Below, piece by piece: positions 4,014-11,371 of a stretch of 33,059 nucleotides of DNA; the first letter of the stretch is position 1; every line of letters begins with the position of its first letter. The notes beneath the pieces are model-generated. The model saw only the letters and a program-made list of their open reading frames with translations. It was not told the origin of the DNA and made no database searches. This stretch comes from a virus, in IMG/VR virus record IMGVR_UViG_3300032296_000609, positions 1-33,059 of that record; one strand, 5' to 3'. The position numbers and the translations under genes were made by a program.

Positions 4014-4047
4014 TTTTTGGCCTCTATAAAAAAACTTTGGTCGGGTG

Positions 4048-4077
4048 TTGCAATCCTACATTGTTCCATGCTAAAGT
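4048..4077 (+). promoter_or_regulatory. Putative rightward early promoter
   Basis: Minus-35 TTGCAA (4048-4053), an 18-base spacer, then minus-10 TAAAGT (4072-4077), 59 bases before the Sak4-like gene. TTGCAA matches 4 of 6 and TAAAGT 4 of 6 sigma70 positions. The flanking GTTGCA and TGCAAC form an inverted repeat that could be an operator. Confidence 0.45.
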
Positions 4078-4081
4078 GCAA
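4053..4081 (-). promoter_or_regulatory. Putative leftward promoter overlapping the rightward one
   Basis: On the minus strand, TTGCAC (4081-4076), a 17-base spacer and TAGGAT (4058-4053) give a sigma70-like promoter for the HTH and primase genes. It occupies the same DNA as the rightward promoter, so RNA polymerase should not be able to bind both at once. Confidence 0.45.
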
Positions 4082-4135
4082 CCACTGCGCGAACGGAATC
4101 ACCCAAAGGCGCAGCAACCAAGAAGGAGAGCCAAC

Positions 4136-4810
4136 ATGGCAATCAACGTGAAGACCACCGGCAGCCTGGCTGCCAACGGTGTGAAAGTCCTGGTCTATGG
4201 CCAGGCAGGGGCTGGAAAGACCAGCCTCATCAAGACGCTGCCCAGCCCCATTGTGCTGTCGGCAGAGGGTGGCCTGCTGTCCATCCAGGACGCAGACCTG
4301 CCGTTCATTGAGATCACCTCAATGACCGAGCTACAGGAGGCTTACACCTGGCTGACCAGCAGCGACGAGGCCAAGGCCTACAAATCGGTGGCACTGGACA
4401 GCATCAGCGAGATTGCTGAGGTCTGCCTGAACACCGAGAAGAAGGCCACCAAAGACCCGAGGCAAGCCTACGGTGCAATGCAGGAGCAGATGGCCGACAT
4501 CATTCGGGCATTCCGCGATCTGCCTGGCCGCCATGTGTACATGAGCGCCAAGCTGGAAAAGACGCAGGACGAGATGGGACGGGTTCTGTACTCGCCATCG
4601 ATGCCTGGCAATAAGACCGGCCAGGCGCTGCCCTACTTCTTCGACGAGGTGCTGGCACTGCGTGTTGAGAAGGATGGCGATGGCAATACCCAGCGTGCGC
4701 TGATGTGCGACAGCGATGGCCTTTGGCTGGCTAAGGATCGCAGCGGCAAGCTGGATGCCTGGGAGGCACCGGACCTGAGTGCAGTCATTGCCAAGATCGG
4801 AGGCAAGTGA
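4136..4810 (+). CDS. Sak4-like AAA ATPase (recombination)
   Basis: A 224-residue ATP-binding protein of the phage AAA_24/Sak4 group, single-domain RecA relatives that assist DNA annealing and recombination together with a phage SSB. Walker A is GQAGAGKT at 22-29, followed by SPIVLSAEGG; the Walker B-like strand is SVALDS at 84-89. The start at 4136 is preferred because AAGGAGAG lies just upstream; an earlier in-frame start at 4037 lies within the promoter region. It opens the rightward operon and is followed, within two small genes, by a DUF669 SSB-like protein and a PD-(D/E)XK exonuclease. That linkage supports the recombination role. Confidence 0.8.
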   Translation: MAINVKTTGSLAANGVKVLVYGQAGAGKTSLIKTLPSPIVLSAEGGLLSIQDADLPFIEITSMTELQEAYTWLTSSDEAKAYKSVALDSISEIAEVCLNTEKKATKDPRQAYGAMQEQMADIIRAFRDLPGRHVYMSAKLEKTQDEMGRVLYSPSMPGNKTGQALPYFFDEVLALRVEKDGDGNTQRALMCDSDGLWLAKDRSGKLDAWEAPDLSAVIAKIGGK

Positions 4811-5414: not shown

Positions 5415-5936
5415 ATGGCTTTTCTTGGACAAACCTTTGACGCAAACGAACTGCCGCAAGGCAATGGTGGAAGCTATGCACCGCTGCCTGAAGGCAACTA
5501 CAACGCCAACATCACGCAGGCCGAGCTGAAGGACACCAACGATGGGACCGGCCAGTACATCAAGATTCGCCTGGACATCACAGGCCCAAGTCATCAGGGC
5601 CGAGTTGTGTTCTCGAACTTGAACATCAAGAACGCCAACGCGAAGGCCGAGGAGATTGGCCGCCAGCAGTTGGGTGACATCATGCGAGCGATTGGCTTGT
5701 CGAAAGTGACTGACACCGATCAGTTGATCGGCAGCAGCGTCAACATCAAGCTGGCAATTCGTGCCGCACGCACGGATGAGAAGACCGGCAAGACCTACGA
5801 GGCCAGCAACGATGTCAAGGGTTATCGCGCAATCAATGGTGGATCAGCCACAGCGTTTAAGCCAGCCGCACCAGCAGCAGCACCTGCTGCCCAGGCAGCA
5901 CCGGCCAAGGCAGCACCGCCCTGGCTGAAGAAGTAA
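5415..5936 (+). CDS. DUF669-family SSB-like protein
   Basis: A 173-residue protein resembling the DUF669 family, regarded as phage single-stranded-DNA-binding proteins with an OB-like core. Recognisable segments are LPEGNYNANITQAELK (28-43), YIKIRLDITG with a following VFSNLNI, and a 40-residue Ala/Pro-rich tail ending PPWLKK. A low-complexity linker plus terminal tip is typical of SSB-type partner-binding tails, although here the tip is basic and aromatic instead of acidic. AAGGAG precedes the ATG. It probably works with the Sak4-like ATPase and the downstream exonuclease. Confidence 0.75.
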   Translation: MAFLGQTFDANELPQGNGGSYAPLPEGNYNANITQAELKDTNDGTGQYIKIRLDITGPSHQGRVVFSNLNIKNANAKAEEIGRQQLGDIMRAIGLSKVTDTDQLIGSSVNIKLAIRAARTDEKTGKTYEASNDVKGYRAINGGSATAFKPAAPAAAPAAQAAPAKAAPPWLKK

Positions 5937-5946
5937 GCAAGAAAAA

Positions 5947-5974
5947 GCCCCAGGAACCGTGAGGAACCTGGGGC
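5947..5974 (-). terminator. Terminator-like hairpin facing leftward, antisense to the early operon
   Basis: GCCCCAGG (5947-5954) pairs with CCTGGGGC (5967-5974) across a 12-base loop. On the minus strand the stem is followed at once by TTTTTCTT, the classic intrinsic terminator layout. On the plus strand it has no T-tract. No minus-strand gene lies to its right before 13073, so it would stop antisense or read-in transcription. Confidence 0.5.
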
Positions 5975-6006
5975 AATGTGGCAACTACAGGAAGGAGACG
6001 GATACC

Positions 6007-7035
6007 ATGAAGATACCCGAAGCAAATCATAGCATCCAGGTGCTGATCGACAAGCACCACGAGGCCAAGGCTGAGGTGCCCAGGCCGCACATGGGCTGCA
6101 GCCAACTCGGCCATGTGTGTGATCGGTGGCTGTGGCTGAGTTTTCGCTGGGCTGTGCAGCCTAAGTTTCCTGGCCGAGTCCTGCGCCTGTTCCGCAGGGG
6201 CCAGATGGAAGAGGAAACCATTGTCAGTGATCTGCGAGCCATCGGCATGGATGTGCGCAGCACAGGCAGCGCACAGAGCCGTGTTGACCTTGGATGCCAT
6301 GTGTCAGGCAGCCTGGATGCCATCATTGAGTCAGGAGTGCCTGAAGCGCCCAAAAAGCGCCATGTGGCTGAGTTCAAGACGCACAGCAAGAAGTCATTTG
6401 ATGACCTGGTGAAAGAAGGCGTCGAGAAGTCCAAGCCCGAGCACTTTGTCCAGATGCAGCTCTACATGCACGGCACCAAGATCGACCGTGCTTTTTATCT
6501 GGCCGTCTGCAAGGACGATGACCGCATCCACACCGAGCGTGTGAGGTACGACAAGGAGGTGGCCGAAAAGTACATCCAGCGAGGCCACAGGCTGGCCACA
6601 GAGGATCGAATGCCACCGCCAATCAGCACAGACCCAAGCTGGTATCAGTGCAAGTTCTGCGATGCGCACGAGTTCTGCCACAGCACAAAGACCACCAAGC
6701 ATGTGAACTGCCGCACCTGTGCGCATAGCACGGCCACCAAGGCCAGCGAGTGGCATTGTGCCAAGTGGGATGCTGTGATCCCGGTGGATGCCCAGCGCAC
6801 TGGATGTGAAGGACACGTCCTACATCCTGATCTGGTGGCCTGGCAGCGCAAGGACGGGCCAGATGAGTGGACGGCTGTTTATGAGATCAATGGCACGAAT
6901 GTGGCCAACGGAGACCCTGAACAAGAAGGCGTGTTCAGCTCCAAGGAGCTGCTCGCAAATGCTGCTGCCTGCGCCAGCGGTGATTCTTTTATTGCCGAGA
7001 TGCGCATGGACTTCGGCGGGAGGATTGTGGGATGA
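6007..7035 (+). CDS. Cas4/RecB-like PD-(D/E)XK exonuclease with Fe-S cysteine pattern
   Basis: A 342-residue nuclease. The start at 6007 follows AAGGAG; an upstream in-frame start falls inside a hairpin. The PD-(D/E)XK core shows GSLDA (101-105, D104) and AEFKTH (121-126, E122 and K124), then Q149 and Q151 in the FVQMQLYMHG helix. One N-terminal cysteine (C38) and three later ones (C215, C218, C224) match the Cas4/AddB iron-sulfur arrangement. A further group (C235, C238, C251, C267) may bind zinc. It would resect DNA ends, giving single strands for the Sak4-like and SSB-like proteins. Its stop overlaps the next ATG. Confidence 0.8.
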   Translation: MKIPEANHSIQVLIDKHHEAKAEVPRPHMGCSQLGHVCDRWLWLSFRWAVQPKFPGRVLRLFRRGQMEEETIVSDLRAIGMDVRSTGSAQSRVDLGCHVSGSLDAIIESGVPEAPKKRHVAEFKTHSKKSFDDLVKEGVEKSKPEHFVQMQLYMHGTKIDRAFYLAVCKDDDRIHTERVRYDKEVAEKYIQRGHRLATEDRMPPPISTDPSWYQCKFCDAHEFCHSTKTTKHVNCRTCAHSTATKASEWHCAKWDAVIPVDAQRTGCEGHVLHPDLVAWQRKDGPDEWTAVYEINGTNVANGDPEQEGVFSSKELLANAAACASGDSFIAEMRMDFGGRIVG

Positions 7036-7535
7036 CTATTGAAACCATGAAGCAGGCGCTGGAGGCGCTGACACACAAAAAATGGTTTCGCATTGGGCTG
7101 GGGGAGCCAAACGAACCTAAAGTTGAAGCTGCCATCGCCGCCCTACGCACCGCAATCGCAGAGGCTGAGAAGCAGGAGCCGGTGGCGTGGATGGATGAGT
7201 TTGGTAATGTTTTCCCGCTTGGCGCACAGCGTGGCCCGAAATATCTTAACGAGCCAATGAAGCCCCTCTACACCACCCCACCCGCAGCACCTGTGCAGGA
7301 GCCTCGGTGCGCGGTAATCGTGGAGGTGTTCGGAAAAGACTGGCGGCTTGACTACATGTCGCTCCCCGTTGAAAAGCACAGGCTCTACACGCAGCAATAC
7401 GTCTACACCACCCCACCCGCAGCACAGCGGCAATGGGTAGAGCTGACATTTGCTGAGATATGCGAATGTGAAAATGACTATTTGCACCTTTTTGCCCGAG
7501 CCATTGAAGCCAAACTAAAGGAGAAGAACACATGA
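7032..7535 (+). CDS. Modular phage protein with PLYTTPPAA repeats
   Basis: A 167-residue protein built from interchangeable modules seen in many phage early proteins: an N-terminal helix (MKQALEALTHKKW), an EPVAWMDEFG module, two copies of a YTTPPAA segment (near residues 80 and 124), then a WVELTFAEI module ending in EAKLKEKNT. The two YTTPPAA copies are encoded by an exact 24-bp direct repeat. The C-terminus is nearly identical to that of the next gene, and its DNA also supplies the next gene's Shine-Dalgarno. Function is unknown. The 4-bp start/stop overlaps show translational coupling. Confidence 0.65.
   Translation: MTIETMKQALEALTHKKWFRIGLGEPNEPKVEAAIAALRTAIAEAEKQEPVAWMDEFGNVFPLGAQRGPKYLNEPMKPLYTTPPAAPVQEPRCAVIVEVFGKDWRLDYMSLPVEKHRLYTQQYVYTTPPAAQRQWVELTFAEICECENDYLHLFARAIEAKLKEKNT
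7267..7425 (+). repeat. Exact 24-bp direct repeat inside one gene
   Basis: The same 24 bases occur at 7267-7290 and 7402-7425, encoding two YTTPPAA modules. A 14-bp piece just after the second copy (CCGCAGCACAGCGG, 7417-7430) recurs at 7704-7717 in the next gene. These are probable recombination points for module exchange. Confidence 0.9.
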
Positions 7536-7831
7536 AACCCGAAGACATCATCAAAGCAACTCGCAACAGCCTGAACATCTATTCATTCACTGCCGAGGCG
7601 CTTGAGAAATTGATTGCCGCAATCCAGTCAGAACATAAATGCCAGACCTGTGAAGCGTTGGCCCGAACGGTAATGATGGATCAAACGGCGCATGACACGC
7701 ATACCGCAGCACAGCGGGAATGGATTGGGCTGACGGATGAGGAAGTCGGTCTGTTTGTGGAAAACAGGCGGGCAGAAGATTGGGTGTTTGTACGCTCGGT
7801 CGAAGCCAAACTTAAGGAGAAGAACACATGA
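7506..7831 (+). repeat. 30-bp gene-end repeat carrying a Shine-Dalgarno and overlapping stop/start
   Basis: Positions 7506-7535 and 7802-7831 are identical except for one base. Each copy encodes the C-terminus EAKLKEKNT, includes AAGGAG, and ends in ATGA, the start of the next gene overlapping the stop of the current one. Confidence 0.9.
7532..7831 (+). CDS. Modular phage protein sharing its C-terminus with the preceding gene
   Basis: A 99-residue protein. The N-terminal half is MKPEDIIKATRNSLN and a helix with CQTCEA. The C-terminal half (AAQREWIGLTDEEV through EAKLKEKNT) repeats the module that ends the preceding protein. It looks like a plug-in gene with its own N-terminal domain and a shared tail. 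The CxxC pair near residue 37 could bind metal, but nothing else indicates an enzyme. Start and stop both overlap neighbours by 4 bp. Confidence 0.65.
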   Translation: MKPEDIIKATRNSLNIYSFTAEALEKLIAAIQSEHKCQTCEALARTVMMDQTAHDTHTAAQREWIGLTDEEVGLFVENRRAEDWVFVRSVEAKLKEKNT

Positions 7832-8019
7832 CCCGCGACGACATCACCCGCATTGCCCGTGTGGCTGGGTTTGTAGGCTTTGATGGGGACAACGGGTCAC
7901 TGAGACGCTTCGCCGCCATTGTCGCCGCAGCCGAGCGCGAGGCGTGTGCTCAGATTGCCTTTAATGCCAAGACATACATCGAAGCTGCCGCCGCAATCCG
8001 AGCAAGGGGGCAAGCATGA
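7828..8019 (+). CDS. Small modular phage protein (AEREACAQ type)
   Basis: A 63-residue protein with MTRDDITRIARVAGF at the N-terminus and AAEREACAQIAFNAKTYIEA leading to AIRARGQA. This AEREACAQ to AIRARG layout is common in small phage early proteins of unknown function. Its 3' end carries the 19-bp sequence that recurs at the end of the next gene and contains an AAGGGGG ribosome-binding site for it. No enzymatic motif is seen. Confidence 0.65.
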   Translation: MTRDDITRIARVAGFVGFDGDNGSLRRFAAIVAAAEREACAQIAFNAKTYIEAAAAIRARGQA

Positions 8020-8262
8020 ACTGGCTACCTGAGCACAAGTGCGGCTTGTACCTAGAACACAACGCCCACAAGGATGTGTATGAAACGATTGAGGAGTATT
8101 ACGACCCAAAAGATTTTGTCTCTGATGAGGAGTGGACAAAAGCTGTTGAGTTGGATAGCGTTTGGCGCTTGCAGTGGTATCCAAACACGCCTGTGGGTTT
8201 TAATGTTGTCTGCGCGTCAACTTTGGCCGCGCTTGAACAATACATCCGAGCAAGGGGGCAAG
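7996..8262 (+). repeat. 19-bp gene-end repeat
   Basis: An identical 19-bp sequence occurs at 7996-8014 and 8244-8262. It encodes IRARGQ at the end of two consecutive, otherwise different genes. In each case the next ATG follows within 0-1 bases, so the repeat doubles as a portable ribosome-binding site. Confidence 0.9.
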
Positions 8263-8273
8263 ATGCTGCGTGA
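8016..8273 (+). CDS. Hypothetical early protein ending in IRARGQDAA
   Basis: An 85-residue acidic, aromatic-rich protein (EEYYDPKDFVSDEEWTKAVELD) that I do not recognise. Its C-terminal IRARGQ module is shared with the previous protein. Its stop lies 8 bp inside the remnant start of the original helicase gene (ATG at 8263), which shows that it was once directly coupled to the helicase before the HNH gene inserted. Confidence 0.6.
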   Translation: MNWLPEHKCGLYLEHNAHKDVYETIEEYYDPKDFVSDEEWTKAVELDSVWRLQWYPNTPVGFNVVCASTLAALEQYIRARGQDAA

Positions 8274-8346
8274 CTACCAACAGCGAACCATCGACCAGCT
8301 TTATGCGTGGTTGCTTTGTGTCCGTCAATCCGATAAAATGGACTGA
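8263..8346 (+). pseudogene. Orphaned helicase N-terminus left by HNH gene insertion
   Basis: A short frame begins with ATG just after the 19-bp repeat and encodes MLRDYQQRTIDQLYAW, then stops after 27 residues. The intact helicase at 8941 begins MQLRDYQSRSIEMLYSW. The two are clearly homologous over about 16 residues but differ in DNA. After TGG at 8308-8310 the homology ends and the promoter and leader of the HNH gene begin. This is the displaced original 5' end of the helicase gene. Confidence 0.8.
8311..8337 (+). promoter_or_regulatory. Possible promoter of the first HNH gene
   Basis: TTGCTT (8311-8316) and GATAAA (8332-8337) are spaced 15 bases apart, 28 bases before the HNH start. The hexamers are moderate and the spacing is short. 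Placement exactly at the insertion boundary suggests the endonuclease brought its own promoter. Confidence 0.3.
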
Positions 8347-8365: not shown

Positions 8366-8941
8366 ATGAAATGTGCATTTGACGAGTGTGAACGCGATGC
8401 CGTTTGCAAGGGTTACTGCGACAAACACTATCGCCGGGTCTTGAGGCGTGGTGACGTCAACAACTACGGCAGTCGCAAAGTCGCAGAAGGTGACGCCATA
8501 GAACGGTTTCATCAAAAGTATGAGATCAATGAATCTGGCTGCTGGATGTGGACTGGTGGCACAAGACCGAACAGCAAAGGTGTACCGTATCCAAGGCACT
8601 GGACAGATGATTCTGAGTCAATCGGCGCGCACAGGTTTTCATTTGAACTGGTGCATGGAGCAATACCGCAAAGCATGTACGTCTGCCACAAGTGCGACAC
8701 GCCGCTGTGCGTGAACCCAGATCATCTTTTTATTGGAAGTCACCAGGACAACATGCGCGATATGGTCGCCAAGCAAAGATCGTTTATCGGACGTGGAGAA
8801 GACAAAAAAGGTCGCGCAAAGTTGACCAATCAACAGGCCGATCAGATCAGAAAAATGAATATGTCTCACTCCAAGATTGCCTTCATGTTTGGAGTCAGCG
8901 CCACCACTATCGGACGGATCAAGCGCGAGGAGAGTTACTGA
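8366..8941 (+). CDS. HNH endonuclease (homing-type), inserted at the helicase 5' end
   Basis: A 191-residue nuclease. A possible N-terminal zinc knuckle has C3, C8, C14 and C18. The HNH core is at about 88-130: AHRFSFELVHG, then VCHKCD (106-111), C115, and NPDHL with N117 and H120. The C-terminal 35 residues form an HTH (HSKIAFMFGVSATTIGRI), probably for target recognition. AAGGAG precedes the ATG. Its stop overlaps the helicase ATG (TGATG), so it is now coupled to the helicase. Sampled GC (28/60 bases at 8761-8820) is lower than in the downstream helicase body. It is free-standing: there is no intron or intein, and the helicase is re-started, not spliced. Confidence 0.85.
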   Translation: MKCAFDECERDAVCKGYCDKHYRRVLRRGDVNNYGSRKVAEGDAIERFHQKYEINESGCWMWTGGTRPNSKGVPYPRHWTDDSESIGAHRFSFELVHGAIPQSMYVCHKCDTPLCVNPDHLFIGSHQDNMRDMVAKQRSFIGRGEDKKGRAKLTNQQADQIRKMNMSHSKIAFMFGVSATTIGRIKREESY

Positions 8942-10542
8942 TGCAGCTTCGAGACTACCAATCCAGAAGCATTGAGATGCTGTATTCATGGATTGAGAAC
9001 AACAAAGGGCATCCATGTGTTGTCATGCCAACAGGTTCTGGAAAGAGCCATGTCATTGCAGCACTGTGCAAGGATGCGCTTCAATCGTGGCCAGAAACAC
9101 GCGTTTTGATGCTCACGCATGTCAAAGAACTGATTGAACAGAATGCAGAAAAGATGCGTCTTCATTGGCCTGGCGCACCAATGGGAATTTACAGCGCAAG
9201 CGTTGGAAAGCGCCAGCTTGGAGAGCCAATCACGTTTGCTGGAATTCAATCAGTGCGCGATAAAGCAAGGCTGATCGGACACATTGATTTGATCGTCATT
9301 GATGAATGCCATCTTGTGAATCACAAAGATGAAGGCGGGTATCGCAAGTTGATCGGTGAATTGATGGCAGTAAACCCTGCTCTCCGCATCATCGGGTACA
9401 GCGCAACGCCCTACCGCCTGGGGCACGGCCTGATAACCGACAAGCCTGCCCTGTTCGATGCCCTGATTGAGCCTGTGAGCATTGAGGAGCTGGTGTTTAA
9501 GGGCTACCTAGCCACCCTGCGCAGCAAGGTCACCAGGGCCAAGCTGGATGTGACTGGCGTGCATAAACGTGGGGGCGAGTTTATTGAGGCCGAGCTGCAG
9601 GCAGCCGTTGACACCGACGACAACAATCAGCGGGTAGTGCGTGAGATCGTCGAGCTGGCAGGAGATCGCAAGGCCTGGCTGGTGTTTTGTACAGGCGTCA
9701 AGCACGCACAGCATGTAGCCGAAGTCCTACGCCAGCAAGGCGTGACCGCTGAGTGCGTGACGGGTGAAACTCCTAAGAAGGAGCGCGAGCGAATGCTGAC
9801 AGAGTTCAAGGCTGGCCGCCTACGCGCCTTGACAAACGCCAACGTGCTGACCACTGGGTTCGACTATCCTGACATAGACCTGATCGCCATGCTGCGCCCA
9901 ACCATGTCGGCCAGCCTGTACGTCCAGATGGCAGGCCGAGGCATGAGGGTCAAGAGCCACACCGATCATTGCCTGGTGCTGGACTTTGCTGGGGTGGTGG
10001 CCACGCACGGGCCGATCACCGCAGTGCAGCCGCCAAAGAAGGCAGGCGATGGCAATGGCGAGGCACCAGTCAAGGTCTGCGACAACTGCGGTGAGCTGTG
10101 CGCCATCTCGGTGGCCGTCTGCCCTGCCTGCTTGCATCCATTCCCTGAGCCTGAGCGCAAGAAACTGGAGCTGCGCAACGACGACATCATGGGCCTGGAA
10201 GGTAAAGACCTTGAGGTGACGAGCTGGAACTGGCGCAGGCACATCAGCAAGGCCAGCGGCAAGGAGATGCTGTCCTGCACTTACTATGGCAGCCTGTCCG
10301 ACAAGCCCATCACCGAATACCTGCCGGTGCTGCATGATGGCTATGCTGGAGAGCGTGCGATGCAGCAGCTCTTCAAGATGGCCAACTCGTCAGGTGCGCA
10401 TCTGGCCGAGGCCGAGCGCATGGGCGATAGCGAAGGACTGGAATACCTGGCCGTGCAGATGAGCAATAGCCAGCCGCCCAAGGCCATCGAGTACAAAATG
10501 GACGGGAAGTTTCACCGTGTTTTGAAAAGGAGTTGGACATGA
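8941..10542 (+). CDS. SF2 (DEAD/DEAH-type) helicase with zinc finger
   Basis: A 533-residue helicase. Walker A is MPTGSGKS (29-36), motif II is DECH (121-124), motif III is SAT (154-156), motif V is TTGFD (304-308) and motif VI is QMAGRGMR (329-336). A treble-cysteine or zinc segment follows with C380, C383, C394 and C397. The N-terminal LRDYQ is the Q-motif region of this phage family. It may unwind or remodel DNA during replication or recombination. The first roughly 450 bp are AT-richer than the rest (28/60 and 26/60 GC in samples, against 34/60 and 38/60 later). Together with the duplicated N-terminus at 8263, this suggests that the 5' part came in with the HNH gene. Confidence 0.88.
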   Translation: MQLRDYQSRSIEMLYSWIENNKGHPCVVMPTGSGKSHVIAALCKDALQSWPETRVLMLTHVKELIEQNAEKMRLHWPGAPMGIYSASVGKRQLGEPITFAGIQSVRDKARLIGHIDLIVIDECHLVNHKDEGGYRKLIGELMAVNPALRIIGYSATPYRLGHGLITDKPALFDALIEPVSIEELVFKGYLATLRSKVTRAKLDVTGVHKRGGEFIEAELQAAVDTDDNNQRVVREIVELAGDRKAWLVFCTGVKHAQHVAEVLRQQGVTAECVTGETPKKERERMLTEFKAGRLRALTNANVLTTGFDYPDIDLIAMLRPTMSASLYVQMAGRGMRVKSHTDHCLVLDFAGVVATHGPITAVQPPKKAGDGNGEAPVKVCDNCGELCAISVAVCPACLHPFPEPERKKLELRNDDIMGLEGKDLEVTSWNWRRHISKASGKEMLSCTYYGSLSDKPITEYLPVLHDGYAGERAMQQLFKMANSSGAHLAEAERMGDSEGLEYLAVQMSNSQPPKAIEYKMDGKFHRVLKRSWT

Positions 10543-10777: not shown

Positions 10778-11371
10778 ATGGACATTTCTACCTTGCAAGA
10801 GGCACTTGAGTATTTCCCAGAGACTGGTTTGTTTTTCTGGAAGACAAGACCAGTCCATCACTTCAAAAACGAATGGTCCATGAATAAATGGAACGCTCGT
10901 TATGCCGGGCAAAAAGCTGGGACAGTTTATTCACCAACCAGAGGTGTTGACTACATGCGGGTGAAGATTGTTGTGTGGAACAAGCCTGTGTTTGCTCATC
11001 AACTGGCGTGGTGGTTTGTGCATGGAGTGATACCGCATGGCCTCTTTGTTGATCACATCGACGGAGACGCAACCAACAATGCAATCAGCAATTTGAGGCT
11101 TGTGAACCATTCAGAAAATCACAGAAACAGGCGCATTCAGTCGAACAACAGCAGTGGAGTCCCTGGCGTCCAGATGCGCCGAGGCAAATGGTGCGCCAGG
11201 ATAAAGATCAACGGCAAGGAGAAATATCTTGGTTCATTTGCATCAAAAGAGCAGGCCATCGATGCGCGCAAAAAGTTTGCAATCCAGCACGGATTCACAG
11301 AAAGACACCATACCGACAGAAGACCACGAGCAGATGATGCTGGTGCAGTGGTTCAGGAAAACATACCCTGA
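10778..11371 (+). CDS. HNH endonuclease with AP2 DNA-binding domain (homing-type)
   Basis: A 197-residue protein. The N-terminal region (LQEALEYFPETGLFFWK) is typical of HNH_3/AP2 endonucleases. The catalytic segment VDHIDGDATNNAISNLRLV is at 91-109 (D92, H93, N105). The AP2 domain is at about 127-170 (SGVPGV, GKWCARI, YLGSFASKEQAIDA). The natural family end would be about residue 178. The last 20 residues (TDRRPRADD and onward) are read from the start of the VRR-NUC gene in another frame, so the native stop seems to have been lost at the insertion junction. AAGAGG precedes the ATG. Confidence 0.85.
   Translation: MDISTLQEALEYFPETGLFFWKTRPVHHFKNEWSMNKWNARYAGQKAGTVYSPTRGVDYMRVKIVVWNKPVFAHQLAWWFVHGVIPHGLFVDHIDGDATNNAISNLRLVNHSENHRNRRIQSNNSSGVPGVQMRRGKWCARIKINGKEKYLGSFASKEQAIDARKKFAIQHGFTERHHTDRRPRADDAGAVVQENIP

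Follow-up and report, generated by a model that had tools for sequence, protein, structure and literature searches.

We find that positions 7032-8273 of the IMG/VR virus record IMGVR_UViG_3300032296_000609 (33,059 bases, analysed at full length and called the window below) hold four small genes chained by ATGA overlaps, whose ends are drawn from a few short coding tails shared with many other phage genes. The region starts in the ATGA overlap of an exonuclease gene (7032) and ends a few bases beyond the ATG of a helicase start. Across phages, unrelated gene bodies carry shared tails, one and the same body occurs with different tails and neighbours, gene content between exonuclease and helicase turns over rapidly, and recent breakpoints are concentrated at the tails and at anchors inside genes. 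Sequence comparison makes it probable that cassettes are exchanged here with the assistance of homology in coding tails that carry the next ribosome-binding site, presumably through a recombinase. An earlier reading of the letters of the window alone (the original prediction) had proposed swappable cassettes with homologous ends; tails, bodies and breakpoints all support it, while homologous recombination as the driver is something we infer. We amend it in two respects: what lies here is a single hypervariable slot of a freshwater phage, flanked by two conserved recombination-type genes, and exchange also occurs at anchors within genes (QEPVAW, REWVGLTDEE), so that gene parts are shuffled besides whole genes. 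The slot and its elements are as follows, where the K and R tails are the KEKNT and RARGQ types.

7032-8262, plus strand: hypervariable cassette slot, from the exonuclease to the helicase start, with four genes here
7032-7535, plus strand: slot gene 1, 167 amino acids, with the head MTIETMKQALEAL..QEPVAW, two units ending in YTTPPAA, a REWVGLT-type domain and a K tail
7173-7190, plus strand: inner anchor QEPVAW of gene 1; similarity to the close relative L484 stops just behind it, at 7196
7267-7290, plus strand: 24-base-pair (bp) YTTPPAA repeat, copy 1
7402-7425, plus strand: 24-bp YTTPPAA repeat, copy 2
7417-7447, plus strand: inner anchor AAQRQWVELT of gene 1
7506-7535, plus strand: K tail of gene 1, EAKLKEKNT plus AAGGAG plus ATGA
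7532-7831, plus strand: slot gene 2, 99 amino acids, with its body, a REWIGLTDEE anchor, a diverged segment and a K tail
7704-7747, plus strand: AAQREWIGLTDEE, the inner anchor in gene 2 at which similarity to six contigs stops
7802-7831, plus strand: K tail of gene 2, with one mismatch to that of gene 1
7828-8019, plus strand: slot gene 3, 63 amino acids, with a MTRDDI..ERFAA head and an R tail (IRARGQA)
7996-8019, plus strand: R tail of gene 3, IRARGQA plus AAGGGG plus ATGA
8016-8273, plus strand: slot gene 4, 85 amino acids, of the MNWLPEHK family, with an R tail (IRARGQDAA); relatives have K or R tails
8244-8273, plus strand: R tail of gene 4; the ATG of the old helicase start, at 8263, lies within it

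The repeats on which the original prediction was built are present as described. Genes 1 and 2 share a 30-bp end with one mismatch (7506-7535 and 7802-7831), genes 3 and 4 share a 19-bp exact end (7996-8014 and 8244-8262), the 24-bp repeat inside gene 1 is exact, and a 14-bp repeat, CCGCAGCACAGCGG, joins gene 1 (7417-7430) to gene 2 (7704-7717). In 500 dinucleotide shuffles of 7032-8273 the longest exact repeat had a mean of 9.8 bp and never exceeded 14 bp, compared with 24 bp in the real sequence. Tails had also been called more alike than bodies; it holds that the two do not diverge together, but the bodies of genes 1 and 2 are not wholly unlike, having a common C-terminal domain (AAQRxWxxLT...EAKLKEKNT) and a diverged middle. 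Gene 2 is all-helical by prediction, with its tail at the end of the last helix. In the window genes the tails are coding sequence up to the overlapping ATGA, except that gene 4 lacks an ATGA end, its stop lying 8 bases past the next ATG (8263), the start codon of a truncated helicase copy.

The exact ends recur on many other phage genes with different bodies. An exact search found at least 143 copies of the K tail, AAGGAGAAGAACACATGA, in at least 120 IMG/VR stretches. Among the matches listed, 18 contigs contained two or more K tails, an open frame of at least 28 amino acids followed 139 of the 143, 9 of the 143 ended frames of fewer than 30 amino acids, and 101 of the 143 K-tailed genes had a W.GLT-like domain within their last 60 residues (33 were without it). 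In the phages DSL-LC04, DSL-LC05 and ct2t2046 the K tail is found on three further, different genes. R-type tails, allowing any six-base spacer, occur in at least 119 stretches, relatives have a third tail type (AHGI..GEA), and all three types place an AAGG[AG]G-like core a few bases ahead of the ATG. A permuted control for the K tail, with two codons exchanged at equal composition and the scan completed, matched 15 stretches, none of the 15 family-like. The exact K tail in 257 gigabases of bacterial and archaeal contigs matched 59 stretches, and the single family-like one was in a betaproteobacterial bin (L279). A version of LKEKNT with GAA for E was tried as a codon negative control and rejected, as most of its matches were family tails: 85 of 120 were family-like by motif, 66 of those 85 with ATGA (among the matches listed). 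That version is unfit as a control because AAGGAA still resembles a Shine-Dalgarno sequence. Separately, contig L113 has, just past position 306, a 12-residue frame, MTRDDIRARGEQ, in which the start of the gene 3 family is fused to an R tail and the body is absent.

Near-identical bodies (91-100% identity) recur with other tails, other C-terminal segments and other neighbours. The first ~65 residues of gene 2 are found at 91-95% DNA identity in six contigs, where similarity to the window starts in the tail region of the upstream gene (window 7491-7506) and ends at window 7743-7747, i.e., at REWVGLTDEE. Behind this anchor every one of the six has a segment unlike that of the window and then a KLKEKN tail, and the segment is common only to the near-twins L480 and L481. 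These two are 99.8% identical across 3,283 bp (three of the seven mismatches fall within the last 32 bases) and part at the base after ATGA, at a KEKNT/ATGA junction. Gene 4 has 51 relatives, some with KEKN-type and others with RARG-type tails. After dereplication, the gene's own tail and the tail of its upstream gene were of the same type in 18 of 18 typed cases (12 K-K, 6 R-R, 0 mixed), 13 further cases being untypable on at least one side. A tree of 35 gene 4 bodies requires 4-5 changes of the own-tail type, of which at least two are forced by well-supported branches.

Slot turnover was followed in a set fetched by the exonuclease and not by the tails (best 80 of 510 kept; 82 records examined including the window and L005), 72 of which hold both exonuclease and helicase. 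The slot in these 72 ranges from 0 to 10 small genes, the largest having 10 genes in 2,655 bp, and it is empty in 13, with exonuclease and helicase overlapping or touching. L005 was listed as empty by the gene finder, yet has room before the helicase for one small gene ending in RARGN, a one-gene slot related to gene 3. Slot content differs in 1 of 17 pairs at exonuclease DNA identity of at least 99%, in 34 of 40 at 95-99% (23 different, 8 empty versus filled, 3 partly shared; the remaining 6 both empty) and in 204 of 206 at 92-95%. On either side of its slot L484 matches the window at 92-98% identity, and its single slot gene consists of the gene 1 head with QEPVAW, the CQTCEALARTVMMDQTAHDT segment of gene 2 and a third-type tail, FARAIEAAHGITGEK. 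Pairs with unlike bodies in which 15 or more of the 18 bases before ATGA were identical made up 18 of 406 slot pairs versus 6 of 2,145 outside-slot pairs from the same loci; for the last 30 bases, the mean difference between slot and outside (0.107) was reached in none of 5,000 label shuffles; and one of the three tail types was found on 14 of 29 slot genes versus 1 of 66 genes outside the slot.

Recent breakpoints were taken as the interior ends, 97 after dereplication, of blocks with an identity of 95% or more, and they cluster at the tails, as the original prediction would have it. Six lie at K tails (6.3 times the value for random positions), four at R tails (5.9 times), eight at the inner anchor REWVGLTDEE (6.1 times) and 16 at ordinary ATGA junctions (1.8 times). 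Considering all blocks, a comparison in which the pairs are heavily related, 58-73% of those ends that are closest to K or R junctions fall within -45..+10, versus 12-14% at random; the values for ordinary junctions are 16-18% versus 9%. When homologous genes are compared across contigs and binned by increasing identity, their upstream neighbours are homologous as well in 2, 2, 3 and 33% of cases at tail junctions (n = 224, 199, 72 and 18) and in 15, 26, 47 and 86% at ordinary junctions (n = 852, 227, 130 and 64). Per gene cluster, conservation of the upstream neighbour is 0.23 across tails (32 clusters) versus 0.58 across ordinary junctions (144 clusters). For unrelated upstream genes at tail junctions, DNA identity stays at background (0.26-0.34) up to -33 and from there to the ATG takes the values 0.39, 0.58, 0.64, 0.86 and 0.80, of which those at -15..0 are partly high through motif selection and those at -33..-15 are free of that effect; at ordinary junctions identity reaches just 0.49. 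Similarity extends ~27 bases into the unrelated upstream gene.

The exchange that we propose would work as follows. The slot is filled by small accessory genes that end in one of a few shared coding tails (KEKNT and RARGQ, in relatives also AHGI..GEA). Within each tail lie the final codons of the gene itself, a Shine-Dalgarno sequence for the gene that follows and the stop/start overlap ATGA. Tail homology of ~15-35 bp would allow pairing or annealing between unrelated genes; a gene could then be gained, lost or exchanged for another, either whole or only in the portion that follows an inner anchor (REWVGLTDEE, for example). As the tail is common to unrelated genes, a swap could be in frame without breaking the neighbour: the product would keep the in-frame protein end, the next Shine-Dalgarno sequence and the ATGA overlap, and the neighbour, whose translation the tail may drive, would still be translated. 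The recombination machinery may use the tail homology, through Sak4 and SSB in this phage and through host or other enzymes elsewhere. Passages of PMC5928155 describe Sak4 with its SSB as annealing single strands, and in the window phage both genes lie just upstream of the slot, among these neighbours:

4037-4810, plus strand: Sak4-like single-strand annealing protein, candidate recombinase (phrog_124, 5e-60)
5415-5936, plus strand: SSB-like protein (phrog_6015, 9e-29)
5959-7035, plus strand: Cas4-domain exonuclease, left border of the slot (phrog_1990, 4e-98)
8263-8346, plus strand: truncated start of a former helicase, bounding the slot on the right (8262-8312 matches the start of the intact L484 helicase at 98% identity)

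We offer more tentatively the wider suggestion that many freshwater phages, otherwise unrelated, use the tails as a common plug standard, in a diffuse cassette economy that does without integrases. Whole genes and gene parts would change places at a limited number of common ends and inner anchors, and the tail would be kept for its triple service as protein end, translation start and recombination site.

Several results weigh against tail-directed exchange. Most recent block ends (63 of 97) lie at no marked site, and the 4-5 tail-type changes on the gene 4 tree mean that tail switches in that family are real but not frequent. In the 88 loci with both K and R tails, neighbouring tails were the same in 34 cases and different in 29 (25 and 23 when shuffled); there is no local tail-type matching in these mixed loci, and tail matching is therefore a property of the lineage and not of each insertion. 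Local matching as proof of insertion at equal tails was accordingly rejected. Fine matching of K-K neighbours is weak (5.18 versus 5.64 mismatches, standard deviation 0.19). Among 36 clean indel rows, none of the nine cases inspected was a plain K/K tail event; in one of the nine (L145/L240) an R-type gene has been lost, at a short stretch of AGGG-like homology. Many of the loci were fetched via the tail itself, and pairs are non-independent. Finally, 22 tail-bearing contigs (19 picked for size among those fetched by tails, plus L478, L480 and L481) gave no strong and one borderline match to Sak4, none to RecT and two to ERF; Sak4 as a general recombinase is unsupported, being mostly absent from them.

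This pattern might instead be produced by unspecific (illegitimate) recombination and selection, in which exchange takes place anywhere, the survivors keep genes and overlaps, and the tails are a by-product of common descent. The 1.8-fold enrichment of block ends at ordinary ATGA junctions and the many ends at no marked site agree with it, as do empty and filled slots that join at gene borders with no evident shared tail on the exonuclease side. We consider it unlikely nonetheless: the enrichment at tail junctions is three times that at ordinary ones, the six gene 2 blocks all stop at one intragenic anchor, to within a few bases, and similarity runs on past the gene border into unrelated upstream genes. 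Far less probable is an origin with no exchange at all, by duplication and divergence within a single gene family that is selected for the protein C-terminus and a good ribosome-binding site. The W.GLT-like domain in about 101 of the 143 K-tailed genes, the clustering of gene 4 tail types on its tree and the tail at the end of a predicted helix would suit such an origin, but it is already contradicted by near-identical bodies with switched ends. The L480/L481 pair, bodies of 91-100% identity followed by different segments and neighbours, the 33 K-tailed genes in which the domain is lacking and the turnover of the slot speak against it as well.

Convergence, where the tails would be merely a favoured Shine-Dalgarno sequence and spacer, seems the least credible of these accounts. 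The core near the ATG in all three tail types is what it predicts, yet the permuted spacer of equal composition yielded no family member, the large bacterial and archaeal set yielded one, and the similarity goes beyond the Shine-Dalgarno sequence into the EAKL codons. Integron gene cassettes are single-gene units with a shared 3' element, gained and lost at one slot, and the slot described here is like them in its single-gene units, its common 3' element and its one location. Unlike integrons, the one record searched, which is possibly incomplete, had no match to an integrase or resolvase (PF00589, PF00239), and the four tails as single-stranded DNA did not fold beyond shuffles (z-scores -0.32 to 1.21), unlike the integron 3' site, which folds and is imperfectly palindromic; integron-like or other site-specific recombination was rejected on these grounds.

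Exchange at shared gene ends is already known in kind, from isolated precedents. The neighbouring genes 67 and 68 of mycobacteriophage Island3 have a common 3' end of 18 residues (~50-60 bp), and Brujita, a relative without the Island3 gene, has one recombinant copy, for which recombination at the shared end was proposed (in the passages concerned of PMC3029335). As in Island3, neighbouring or exchangeable genes here share a short end and differ in their bodies. The Island3 case is a single event in one phage pair, with neither inner anchors nor a hypervariable slot, unlike the present one, and the passages on it in PMC3029335 make no mention of the end as a standard for many genes or as carrying the next start signal. 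Recent joints within the shared end (K and R tails account for 10 of the 97, about six times random, and there is the L480/L481 junction) place our case with Island3 and with phage HK620. For HK620, Clark et al. 2001 reportedly described conserved boundary sequences of lambdoid phages, short and situated at gene borders, as proposed exchange sites; they are said to lie in the nin region of enteric phages. By this description, the likeness to the tails is that of short border sequences that are shared. Cluster K mycobacteriophages have start-associated sequences, with a Shine-Dalgarno core, before many different genes; this 13-bp sequence, GGGATAGGAGCCC, lies mostly in gaps of more than 50 bp and has a proposed role in translation start rather than in exchange (passages of PMC3203893). 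Unlike that intergenic element, the one described here is the coding end of the preceding gene. Phage protein domain mosaicism involves fragments shared by otherwise unrelated proteins under ongoing shuffling; the abstract of PMC10684548 names receptor-binding, lysis and replication proteins and says nothing on coding tails with a start signal. In the literature searched (one library) we found no description of these tails. The scale and the coding-tail form look new; the system is a variant in which the shared end is coding and carries the next start signal, with few dialects over many phages, inner anchors and a hypervariable slot.

It is an old question whether phage mosaicism arises via homologous exchange at short border sequences or via illegitimate recombination, and border sequences have not been identified at most mosaic joints (according to passages of PMC3029335). 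The border sequences described here are plain, abundant and on many genes, which makes the question measurable, as joints with and without tails can be counted. The slot can moreover be read as an inventory of accessory phage genes that move fast, including a cytosine methylase and homing-type endonucleases, and for that reason a good place to seek anti-defence genes.

Ten cargo proteins were scanned against Pfam: six had no match, and the others matched C5 cytosine methylase (L590), NUMOD3 (L586), DUF7694 (L553) and HNH (L534). The cargo may serve host takeover or anti-defence. A 43-amino-acid slot gene at L573:6062-6190 joins the start and end of the L590-type cytosine methylase, as if an in-frame deletion had taken out the middle. 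Slot genes 1-4 of the window had no match in NCBIfam or PADLOC and weak matches only in Pfam and PHROGs (best E 0.0022). The structure model of gene 4 is confident and had no PDB fold match at E <= 0.001, and its sequence had no PDB match at E up to 1.

At the right border of the slot, an HNH endonuclease gene (8366-8941) follows the 28-codon helicase-start remnant (8263-8346) and precedes the full helicase (8941-10542). Compared with the intact helicase of L484, identity is 98% for the remnant but just 82% for the full helicase of the window. The same HNH gene accompanies an 81-83% helicase allele in L533, L575 and L580 (89-95% in most others), and L534 has a different HNH gene behind the same helicase start. 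Judging by these sequences, the 5' end of the helicase seems to have undergone homing-type replacement repeatedly. Downstream of the helicase, at 10778-11371, there is another gene for an HNH endonuclease (PF13392, 9e-16).

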